Part shown: one piece after another, positions 26,563 through 43,324 of the stretch
Layout of the letters: each line of letters starts with the position of its first letter
Position numbering within the stretch: position 1 is the stretch's first letter
Assembly: GCF_000024365.1 (NCBI RefSeq)
Contig: NC_013235.1
Span: forward strand, 4,402,001-4,466,000
Direction of reading: 5' to 3'
DNA from: Nakamurella multipartita DSM 44233
Lineage (GTDB): Bacteria > Actinomycetota > Actinomycetes > Mycobacteriales > Nakamurellaceae
DNA: 64,000 nucleotides
Program-made: the position numbers and the translations under genes
Notes under the pieces: generated by a model
What the model was told of the DNA's origin: nothing
The model's input: the letters and a program-made list of their open reading frames with translations, nothing else
Database searches by the model: none

Positions 26563-27033
26563 TCATGACCTGGTGTCGCCCTGGGCCTGATCGCCCGCCA
26601 GGAACACCAGCCGGAACTTGCCGATCTGCACTTCGTCGCCGTTGGTCAGCGGGGAGACCTCGATGGGTTCGCGGTTGACATAGGTGCCGTTCAACGAACC
26701 TATATCGGCGACCTCGTATCCCTCGGCCGTCCGCCGGAACTCGGCGTGTCGGCGGGAGACGGTCACGTCGTCCAGGAAGATGTCGCTCTCCGGGTGCCGG
26801 CCGGCCGTGATCTTGTCGCGATCCAGCAGGAACCGGGACCCCGCGTTGGGTCCGCGCTTGACGACGAGCAGCGCGGTGCCCGAGGAGAGCCCGTCGACCC
26901 CACCGATGACCTCATCGCCCGACTCGACCTCGGCCGCGCCGAACAACCCGCCGGCGAAGATCGACGTGGAGTCCGACGCCGCGGATGACGACGACGCGGG
27001 CGAATATCCAGGCCCGCGGTCACTCTCAGTCAC
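26563..27033 (-). CDS. garA: FHA-domain metabolic regulator GarA/OdhI
   Basis: 156-aa phosphoprotein switch that inhibits 2-oxoglutarate dehydrogenase and glutamate dehydrogenase in relatives. The C-terminal FHA domain is complete (ITAGRHPESDIFLDDVTVSR, then SLNGTYVN). The N-terminal phospho-site is seen as SDSTSIF, where relatives have ETTS phosphorylated by PknB/PknG. GTG 27033 with AAGGAGTG upstream is preferred to a frame starting at 27147. It is encoded between gcvH and ftsR as in mycobacteria. Binding to its usual partners is inferred. Confidence 0.92.
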   Translation of the reverse strand: MTESDRGPGYSPASSSSAASDSTSIFAGGLFGAAEVESGDEVIGGVDGLSSGTALLVVKRGPNAGSRFLLDRDKITAGRHPESDIFLDDVTVSRRHAEFRRTAEGYEVADIGSLNGTYVNREPIEVSPLTNGDEVQIGKFRLVFLAGDQAQGDTRS

Positions 27034-27207
27034 CAGACACTCCTTCGTATCGCCGTGGCATCTGTGTGCCCGAACACGACGTAACAGTTCCCACGACCGT
27101 ACCGTGCCGGCCCCCGGTGGCGCATCGCGGGCGCGGTCTGCGCCCACCCGGCGGCCGGAAAGTCCGCTGCGCCCACAGGTCTGGGCCGGCCGATCACTGC
27201 TGGCCGA

Positions 27208-40828: not shown

Positions 40829-41269
40829 TCAGGAGCGACCCAGCCGGCTCCACAGGCCGCGTTTGCGCCCCTGCTCCTCCGCGCCGCCGCGGGTGGAGGG
40901 CGCGCCCTTCTCCAGGTCCTGCTCGGTCGGCTCGGGCACCTCGACCTTGTCGTCCAGGACCACCCCGACCAGCCGCCCGTTGTCCACGACCGGGGTGCCC
41001 GCATCCGCCGCGGCGACCTGCGCCCGGCTCACCGGCGGGCGCGGCGTCGAGGAGGACAGGTCCAGCGCCTCGTGCAGCGGGGTGGCCGAGAGCTGGTTGG
41101 TCATCGCGGCCTGCAGCTCGGCCATGGCCAGCACGTGGTACTCGGGCCCGGCCGGCGCCTGCACGACCACGACGACCGGCAGCTTGCCCGTCTTGGCGGT
41201 GAGCAGGGCCAGTCGGGTCGGCCCAACCGTATCCGTCGCCGGCACCGCGATCACCGATTCGACCCGCAT
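40829..41269 (-). CDS. CBS-domain-like protein
   Basis: 146 aa. The clearest CBS-like strand pair is TPVVDNGRLVGVVLDDKV; an N-terminal half (ALLTAKTGKLPVVVVVQAPA, EYHVLAMAELQAAMTN) may be a degenerate second CBS motif. The last 30 residues are charged and end in Arg-rich sequence. Such proteins bind adenosyl nucleotides, but no partner is encoded nearby. ATG 41269. Convergent with sdhB with 16 bases between. Assignment is moderate. Confidence 0.55.
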   Translation of the reverse strand: MRVESVIAVPATDTVGPTRLALLTAKTGKLPVVVVVQAPAGPEYHVLAMAELQAAMTNQLSATPLHEALDLSSSTPRPPVSRAQVAAADAGTPVVDNGRLVGVVLDDKVEVPEPTEQDLEKGAPSTRGGAEEQGRKRGLWSRLGRS

Positions 41270-41322: not shown

Positions 41323-41712
41323 TCAGGAGGTGACCGGGCCGCGCCGGGCGGCGACGAATGAGCGCACGCCGACGGCGAGGTAGGCCACCAGGATCAGGAA
41401 CATGATGGTGCTGACCACGACGGCGGTGGGCCGCTGCGCGGTGCCGGCGAAGACCTGACCGATCTTGACCACGTTCATCAACGATCCGAGCGCGCCCAAT
41501 AGCGCGACGGCGAGCGCGGCGTGGATGGCGTGCCGGCGCAGCTTGTCCTGCCGGGCCAGTACCCCGCAGATCGCCAGAAGCACCCCGACCAGGGCGGGGA
41601 TCAGGGCGGTGAGGCTGGCCGCGCCGGAGAGCGCGTAACCGGCGATGCCCAGCACGGTGAGCACGGCACCAGCGGCCAGGGTGATGGTCGTCATCGGCGT
41701 CGAGGTGTTCAT
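41323..41712 (-). CDS. Four-helix membrane protein of unknown function
   Basis: 129 aa, helices at about 9-27, 32-52 (LTALIPALVGVLLAICGVLA), 62-82 and 98-120. A positive patch (RQDKLRRHAIHA) follows helix 2. The layout of small actinobacterial membrane proteins often next to kinases, but no family name is certain. ATG 41712 reads MNTSTPMTTIT. It could be cotranscribed with the upstream PASTA pseudokinase 83 bases away. Confidence 0.6.
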   Translation of the reverse strand: MNTSTPMTTITLAAGAVLTVLGIAGYALSGAASLTALIPALVGVLLAICGVLARQDKLRRHAIHAALAVALLGALGSLMNVVKIGQVFAGTAQRPTAVVVSTIMFLILVAYLAVGVRSFVAARRGPVTS

Positions 41713-41795: not shown

Positions 41796-43133
41796 TCAGC
41801 CCTCGACCTCGACGGTGACGTCGGTGCCCGCGTCCACCTCGGTCTTCTCCGAGGGCCGCTGGTTGACGATGGTGCCGGCCGGAGCCTTGTTGGTGTCCAC
41901 CACGGTGACCGTGCCCAGCTGCAGTTCCTTGTCCTGCAGCGCGGCACTGGCCCGGGCCACGGTCATGCCGATGACGTTGGGCACGGCGACCTTGGCCGGC
42001 GGCGGCGGGGTGGTGATGACCACCAGGGTCAGCCAGAGGGCGGCCACGAGCGCGACGGCGAGCCCGCCCAGGCCGACGTAGGTCCACCGTTTGCGGTGCG
42101 CGGCCGCCCGTTCCGGGTCGAGCGGCTCGACCTCGTCGAGCACCGGCAGGGTCAGGCCGGGGGCCAGCAGCGGGGCGTTGAGCCGGGACGCCGGGGCGCC
42201 CGCCCCGGCCGCGACCCCGGCGGTCACCCGGGGACGGACCGCGGTGGCCGTGGCCGGCCCGCGCCGGGACACCGGCTCGGGCGCGGCGAAGCTCTCCCGA
42301 GCGGCGACGGTCCGTCCGGCCAGCGCCCGTTCGATGTCGGTCCGCATCTGATCCGCGGTCTGGTAGCGGTTGTCGGGGTTCTTGCTCAACGCCTTGAGCA
42401 CGATCGCATCGACGTCGCGCGGGATGCCCGAGATCACCTCGCCCGGGGCCCGGGGCGCCTGGCGCAGGTGCGCGTCGGCCACGGCCTGCGGGGTCGTCCC
42501 GACGAACGGCGCCCGGCCGGTGAGCATCTCGAACATCACGCAGCCCAGCGTGTACAGGTCGCTGCGCTTGTCGGGCAGCCCACCCCGGATCTGCTCGGGC
42601 GAGTTGTACTGCCGGGCCACCACTTCCGGCGTCCCGGTGCGCTCGCCGATGTTGATCACCTTGACCTGATCGGCGCCGTCGCTGCCCCGGCTCGGGTCGA
42701 TCAGCACGTTCACCGGGGTGAGGTGACAGGGCACCATGTTGCGCCGGTGGGCGTGGTCCAGGGCGGCACACAGCTCGGCCGCGATCTGCAGGGCCCGGCG
42801 CCACGGCAGCGTGCCCTGCCGGGCCAATACGGTGCGCAGGGTGTCCCCCGGCACGTACTCCATGACCACGAACGGGACGCTGCCCGCGTCGCTCGGGGTG
42901 TCACCGGTGTCGTAGACCGCGACGAACGCGGGATGGTTCAGGGCCGCGGCGTGGTTGGCCACCTGCCGGAAGCTGTCCTGGATCGAGTCCTGCGTGGTCA
43001 GGTCCGCGCGCAGGACCTTGATCGCCACGTCCCGGTCCATCAGCAGGTCACGGCCGCGGCGGACCACCGAGATCTCGTCCTGGCCGATGACATCGGTCGC
43101 CTGATATCGGTTCGCGTAGCGATAGCCGACCAT
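41796..43133 (-). CDS. PASTA-domain Ser/Thr pseudokinase
   Basis: 445 aa with PknB-like layout: kinase fold (about 10-280), linker, one membrane helix (about 353-373) and one extracellular PASTA domain (VAVPNVIGMTVARASAALQD). The VAIK lysine is kept (K39) and so is NSPEQ. The glycine loop is lost (IGQDEISVVRRG), HRDLKP is replaced by PCHLTP (135-140), and DFG by NIG (161-163). Both catalytic aspartates are therefore missing and phosphotransfer is not expected. It may act as a scaffold or muropeptide sensor for a true kinase elsewhere. Gene is otherwise intact. Confidence 0.87.
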   Translation of the reverse strand: MVGYRYANRYQATDVIGQDEISVVRRGRDLLMDRDVAIKVLRADLTTQDSIQDSFRQVANHAAALNHPAFVAVYDTGDTPSDAGSVPFVVMEYVPGDTLRTVLARQGTLPWRRALQIAAELCAALDHAHRRNMVPCHLTPVNVLIDPSRGSDGADQVKVINIGERTGTPEVVARQYNSPEQIRGGLPDKRSDLYTLGCVMFEMLTGRAPFVGTTPQAVADAHLRQAPRAPGEVISGIPRDVDAIVLKALSKNPDNRYQTADQMRTDIERALAGRTVAARESFAAPEPVSRRGPATATAVRPRVTAGVAAGAGAPASRLNAPLLAPGLTLPVLDEVEPLDPERAAAHRKRWTYVGLGGLAVALVAALWLTLVVITTPPPPAKVAVPNVIGMTVARASAALQDKELQLGTVTVVDTNKAPAGTIVNQRPSEKTEVDAGTDVTVEVEG

Positions 43134-43324
43134 CGGTCACACTCCCACATCTGCCCCGGGCATACGAGATGGTCGACATCTACCAGCCGGGACCGGCCGA
43201 GCCCGGCAGGACGTGCCCGAGTGTCGGTAAACGTTACGAATCCGACCCGGACCCGTACGGTCGGCGATGGACCTACGCGGCAAACAACGCCGGGCCGGCG
43301 AACGAGCGCGATCGAGGTGTGGAC

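Follow-up and report, generated by a model that had tools for sequence, protein, structure and literature searches.

The window analysed here, a stretch of 64,000 nucleotides from Nakamurella multipartita DSM 44233 (NC_013235.1, positions 4,402,001 to 4,466,000), encodes a membrane protein of 445 residues that, judged by its sequence, is a paralogue of PknB and a pseudokinase under the usual definition (loss of the VAIK lysine, the HRD aspartate and/or the DFG aspartate). We tentatively propose, with a probability of roughly 45%, that this PknB duplicate is kept folded as a non-catalytic membrane partner of the species' own PknB and as a possible phospho-acceptor. N. multipartita is a harmless, free-living sludge bacterium, and its rating is biosafety level 1 (PMC3035273). 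The genome of N. multipartita Y-104T comprises 6,060,298 bases at 70.9% GC (PMC3035273). The gene and its features are located as follows (window coordinates).

41796 to 43133, minus strand: PASTA pseudokinase gene (P0002), 445 aa; open reading frame with an ATG start and no internal stop.
43142 to 43146, minus strand: GGGAG, resembling a ribosome-binding site, 8 nt 5' of the ATG; seen in the sequence, its function presumed.
42321 to 43115, minus strand: kinase-like domain, residues 7-271; from the domain search, the structure model and its structural match.
43062 to 43085, minus strand: degenerate glycine loop GQDEISVV, residues 17-24; from the alignment.
43017 to 43019, minus strand: VAIK lysine K39, kept; from the alignment.
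42960 to 42962, minus strand: Val58 in place of the alphaC Glu; from the alignment.
42708 to 42731, minus strand: catalytic loop PCHLTPVN, residues 135-142; from the alignment.
42645 to 42653, minus strand: NIG in the DFG position, residues 161-163; from the alignment.
42630 to 42638, minus strand: T166-G-T168, in register with T171/T173 of M. tuberculosis PknB; from the alignment, in a low-confidence part of the model; putative phosphorylation site.
42012 to 42083, minus strand: membrane helix, about residues 351-374; a hydrophobic segment in register with the one in PknB, modelled as a helix over 340-374 with low to middling pLDDT.
41802 to 41990, minus strand: single PASTA domain; from Pfam and the alignment, the model not being confident here.
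41323 to 41712, minus strand: downstream gene for a 129-aa membrane-like protein, perhaps co-transcribed, as the 83-bp gap would suggest.
40829 to 41269, minus strand: gene for a 146-aa protein (P0004), perhaps co-transcribed, with weak similarity to TCAD7 (E 0.0012, below the cut-off).

Aligned without gaps, the catalytic loop VHRDIKPANI of the own PknB reads VPCHLTPVNV in the pseudokinase: histidine is replaced by proline, arginine by cysteine, the aspartate by His137 and the lysine by Thr139, and Asn142 is retained. Likewise, VKVMDFG has become VKVINIG, with Asn161 for the aspartate and isoleucine for the phenylalanine, and the glycine loop GFGGMSEV has become GQDEISVV. Compared with the own PknB, the activation segment carries a deletion of ten residues, six residues are inserted before VKV, and the P+1-loop threonine (which we take to be T179 in M. 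tuberculosis PknB numbering) is gone. A T-x-T aligned with T171/T173 persists despite the deletion, at the place where the register is least certain (pLDDT < 50). Residues at the adenine-pocket positions V25, A38 and M92 (M. tuberculosis numbering) are kept.

All 30 PknBs taken as canonical, 17 from the genus (one per genome, with two extra PknB-like genes of the genome G008 set aside) and 13 from the order, possess HRDxK and DFG, so the changes in the pseudokinase are real departures and not family variation. The preliminary description of this DNA had reported PCHLTP for HRDLKP, NIG for DFG, a lost glycine loop and the absence of both catalytic aspartates, all in an intact frame; the alignment with PknBs and the open reading frame bear this out. 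It had also spoken of losses at every catalytic site. This holds for the two aspartates, the glycine loop and the alphaC Glu, but the VAIK lysine and the catalytic-loop asparagine survive.

The lysine, the kinase fold, the membrane helix and the PASTA part remain, as that description had it, with one PASTA domain against four in the own PknB. Pfam matches Pkinase at residues 10-261 (E 9.7e-26) and one PASTA domain at 382-444 (E 1.6e-13), giving a layout of kinase domain, membrane helix (judged from sequence and alignment) and one PASTA. In an AlphaFold model, the block-mean pLDDT is 86-98 across most of the kinase domain, dips at residues 161-170 (below 50 at 164-170) and leaves little confidence past residue 280. 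The modelled kinase part is best matched by crystal structures of M. tuberculosis PknB (Z 37.3, rmsd 1.9, 266 residues aligned, 45% identity), whose chains are also the best relatives by sequence among solved structures (best E 2.5e-68). Pfam and the model agree on the fold, and two of the three defining residues are lost, the lysine being kept. The NCBIfam model PknB_PASTA_kin (NF033483) gives the protein 333.8, below its curated cut-off of 450: the layout of kinase, helix and PASTA fits that family, and the score and the loss of HRD and DFG do not.

The closest matches that turned up for the pseudokinase are PknBs. It aligns over residues 1-443 with its own PknB at 49-49.9% identity, with the N-termini MVGY and MTGY in register. 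On the PknB side the alignment runs end to end over residues 1-429, from the MTGY start through PASTA1, and all indels between the two are in-frame. The single PASTA domain has a score of 132 with PASTA1 and of 72 with PASTA2, the one other repeat tried. As the own PknB (G000:C1:84957-86243) has four PASTA matches, this span marks the pseudokinase as a PknB copy with nothing beyond PASTA1.

Further PknB-like genes occur in the same genome and in G008. P0006 (L075:9024-11246, minus strand, equal to G000:C1:2637023-2639245) is a second degenerate gene of 740 aa with five PASTA matches: HRDxK is changed to HRAxR and the alphaC Glu to Gln, both activation-loop threonines are lost in the alignment, and DFG is kept. 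Its NCBIfam PknB score of 466.8 passes the cut-off of 450, so it is probably called a kinase by automatic annotation. The presence of this HRA gene in the same genome adds interest to the pseudokinase. G008:C349 (L074:12442-13821, plus strand), a short PknB paralogue with a single PASTA and intact HRD and DFG, comes closest to the pseudokinase in layout and has E24V and L33M in common with it; possibly it is a sister that dates from before inactivation. G008:C191 (L077:15481-17637, plus strand) has HRDIRP and altered activation-loop threonines, perhaps representing another step towards inactivity.

Two trees were computed from the PknBs with either six or one of the other kinases of the genome, four and eight own-genome kinases being left out, respectively. 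The pseudokinase lies among the PknBs of the genus (fork 95/92 in the one-kinase tree), with a bootstrap that had not settled in the six-kinase tree and an outgroup that does not form one side of any branch in the one-kinase tree, P0006 standing inside. Its branch, at 4.22 changes per column, is very long: end branches have a median of 0.1. In AU tests, none of five constraints was rejected. Four of them joined the pseudokinase to one or two other sequences: G008:C349 (p 0.094), P0006 (0.374), these two together (0.399) and the own PknB (0.106). The fifth made the 19 genus PknBs a clade from which it was excluded (0.089). Because these alternative placements stand, the point of duplication is not fixed and long-branch attraction is possible; the duplication probably took place inside the Nakamurella lineage.

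No orthologue of the pseudokinase was found in 17 genomes of the genus or in 397 sampled genomes of the order, its own included. Every genus genome (17/17) has a canonical PknB with HRD and DFG, and a pattern made from the catalytic loop of the pseudokinase matches 1 of the 17, although a diverged orthologue would escape a pattern built in this way. The order search, which scored the 4 best candidates in each of 397 genomes sampled from a larger group, returned no second copy and, besides the protein itself, nothing above 49% identity at E<=1e-78; 18 genomes match at that threshold, all 17 genus genomes plus G238 (41%, in a 750-aa frame). At E<=1e-60, a match is present in 58 of 61 genomes of relatives, the own one among them. 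A scan of genome contigs, in a collection that may omit near relatives of N. multipartita, yielded 29 relatives of 25-38% identity; in alignment A1, which holds 22 of them, the columns of the HRD and DFG aspartates are at least 90% conserved. Among plasmids, 673 records matched, 20 of them listed, and none covers 80% of the query. Altogether, the pseudokinase is apparently lineage-restricted.

The neighbouring genes were followed in the same way. Upstream lies a divergent gene of the alpha-amylase family (GH13), with homologues in 7 of the 16 other genus genomes at E<=1e-80; P0004 has homologues in 3 of the 16, one also near sdhAB. TCAD7, which P0004 weakly resembles, is a ternary complex associated domain. 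Around the homologues of P0004 and of the GH13 gene, tblastn at E<=1e-4 detected no pseudokinase within 1.5 to about 6 kb per side; in G008, sdhA-sdhB stands near P0004 as in the window but the kinase is absent, on a contig that stops 1.6 kb past P0004. Nothing in the 129-aa, 146-aa and GH13 genes ties them to PknB signalling, and a promoter scan with the sigma-70 consensus, a poor fit to actinobacteria, gave no promoter-like site. Elsewhere in the window, an FHA-domain protein (26563-27147, minus strand), encoded between genes that by eye are gcvH-like and MerR-type regulator-like, is probably a homologue of GarA. In the MurJ of N. multipartita (L131, G000:C1:6042517 onward), a long C-terminal part looks kinase-like by eye and, like that of M. 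tuberculosis MviN, lacks HRD and DFG.

Upkeep was weighed against neutral simulations that start from PknB and run to the observed 49.9% identity. GC at the three codon positions is 0.73/0.50/0.946 in the pseudokinase and 0.697/0.487/0.956 in the PknB segment. With an equilibrium GC of 0.70, 200 simulations gave a mean GC3 of 0.83 and a maximum of 0.878, and with 0.80 the maximum was 0.921, against about 0.945 observed; the three short gaps flanking the gene (327 bases) have a GC of 0.716. At 58 substituted core positions, hydrophobic in all 17 genus PknBs, 70.7% of the residues are still hydrophobic. Two sets of 100 simulations over a stretch that spans kinase, helix and PASTA averaged 0.44 and 0.41 and peaked at 0.594 and 0.544. 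As GC3 and core hydrophobicity both lie beyond every full-divergence simulation, selection has probably acted on the fold during much of its history.

These two measures make it unlikely that we are looking at a decaying duplicate, drifting with a frame left open by chance in a GC-rich genome. The intact start, the plausible ribosome site and the purely in-frame indels point the same way. The frame itself speaks on either side: simulations at GC 0.70 accumulate 3.8 stop codons on average and stay open with a probability of 0.015, but at 0.80 this rises to 0.115 and an open frame is not rare. Were half of the divergence neutral, GC3 would reach at most 0.930 at GC 0.70, short of the observed value, yet 0.947 at GC 0.80; only the former setting therefore speaks against a neutral phase that was partial or late. 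Decay would also agree with a gene present in one genome only across the genus and sampled order searches, with the very long branch, and with the 175 pseudogenes counted in the genome paper (PMC3035273).

It would agree, too, with the spread of the losses. Of 128 positions that do not vary among the 30 canonical PknBs, the pseudokinase keeps 78 (61%). Losses affect 9 of 16 catalytic or nucleotide positions, chosen by us with M. tuberculosis numbering, and 41 of the 112 other invariant positions (Fisher p = 0.17); the catalytic losses thus belong to a general acceleration and show no significant excess. Selection for inactivation is unproven. Where the gene had been described as selected to be a pseudokinase, the simulations and the model uphold the maintenance of a folded protein, but the catalytic losses do not serve as a signal of selection.

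According to the prevailing view, ligand-driven dimerisation leads PknB to phosphorylate its activation loop; contrary to it, ligand-site mutants of PknB are hyper-phosphorylated (PMC6428115). In the reading that we prefer, the PknB gene was duplicated into a copy ending after the first PASTA, which lost its phosphotransfer residues and evolved fast while staying folded. The pseudokinase would then pair with PknB through the back-to-back face of the N-lobe, the membrane helix and PASTA1, and the pairing would tune the encounter and trans-phosphorylation of PknB molecules. PknB may also phosphorylate T166/T168, docking an FHA protein; the genome contains seven FHA matches.

At the dimer face, the pseudokinase keeps R10 and D76 and has Met in place of L33; both activation-loop threonines, T171 and T173, are retained in the alignment. 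With 61% of the invariant positions kept anyway, the retention of these four residues weighs little. Against a partner role we count the changes at the alphaG positions V222, Y226, Q227 and V229 and the lack of an orthologue in the genus and sampled order genomes. The gene is located away from pknB, and its neighbours offer no connection to PknB or to FHA genes.

Less probably, the protein would act as a HER3-like receptor pseudokinase: a dead PASTA receptor forming mixed dimers and exerting allosteric control over PknB, with the HRA paralogue P0006 as a second non-catalytic twin. If true, one sensor kinase would be flanked by two such twins.

We also doubt that the protein is a membrane decoy or dominant negative, whose PASTA and helix compete for the sites or partners of PknB and whose kinase-like domain is a stabilising remnant. 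PASTA1 and the membrane segment do align well with PknB, and overproduction of the PknB TM-PASTA part inhibited the growth of M. smegmatis, but the effect needed a surface-exposed four-PASTA domain and the helix alone was inactive (PMC4632501). Moreover, the kinase-like core is better kept than under neutrality, in a simulated stretch that includes kinase, helix and PASTA.

The preliminary description had suggested a muropeptide-sensing scaffold analogous to the MviN pseudokinase domain, a role that appears very improbable as stated. The residues proposed to contact the ligand in M. tuberculosis PknB belong to the PASTA3-4 linker, and PASTA4 is indispensable there (PMC6428115); the pseudokinase has only PASTA1 left and lacks the PASTA3-4 region, which makes muropeptide sensing of its own unlikely. 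On the other side, it does carry a PASTA domain, FHA proteins occur in the genome, and a single terminal PASTA is enough for S. pneumoniae StkP, as told in the same paper (PMC6428115). The likeness to MviN is an analogy only: by our alignment the protein is a PknB paralogue, and the genome already has a MurJ of its own with a kinase-like-looking part. Least probable of all is a nucleotide-binding or atypical enzyme in which K39, N142 and the residues at V25, A38 and M92, all kept, serve another ATP-dependent reaction, as in SidJ and SelO, kinase folds with other reactions (PMC12599244): both catalytic aspartates, the alphaC Glu and the glycine loop are lost, and the would-be phosphate-holding loop bears two acidic residues.

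With PknB, be it the own or that of M. tuberculosis, the pseudokinase has in common the kinase fold, the juxtamembrane part, one membrane helix, PASTA1 and the N-terminal register; it differs by the loss of HRD, DFG, glycine loop and alphaC Glu, by its shorter activation segment and by one PASTA instead of four. In the trees, which contain PknBs and own-genome kinases and no ActPs3 rows, it groups with PknB. EssB (YukC) is, to our knowledge, not a PknB duplicate. Like the pseudokinase, it has a membrane-anchored kinase-like domain with a degraded glycine loop and a short activation loop, and it acts as a scaffold; it differs in the loss of the VAIK lysine (LDMR) and in its role in type VIIb secretion (PMC12599244).

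ActPs3, the C-terminal domain of MviN/MurJ, resembles the pseudokinase in its lost catalytic aspartates and its membrane link, and a deletion in its activation loop is described (PMC12599244); the pseudokinase lacks ten residues of that loop relative to the own PknB. ActPs3 is found mainly in actinobacteria and has a dimer face, and MviN recruits FHA; MviN makes its dimer contact through L750 and D793, whose equivalents are needed in other kinases (PMC12599244). The loss of the VAIK lysine that marks ActPs3, with VALT for VAIK in MviN (PMC12599244), is not seen in the pseudokinase, which keeps K39, carries a PASTA domain and is by alignment a PknB paralogue. The word PASTA occurs once in the text of this 2025 review of bacterial pseudokinases (PMC12599244), in the reference list, so its families are not presented there as PASTA receptors.

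No PASTA pseudokinase is described in the titles and abstract openings of the mainly non-subscription literature that we searched, which is no proof of absence. Receptor pseudokinases of the HER3 type are duplicates of a membrane receptor kinase that have lost catalysis and act on the active sister by pairing. The pattern of duplication and lost catalysis is common to the pseudokinase, for which pairing with PknB is our proposal. That dead sister receptors might tune cell-wall sensor kinases is an idea that can be tested directly here, with an active and a dead PASTA receptor living in one free-living species.
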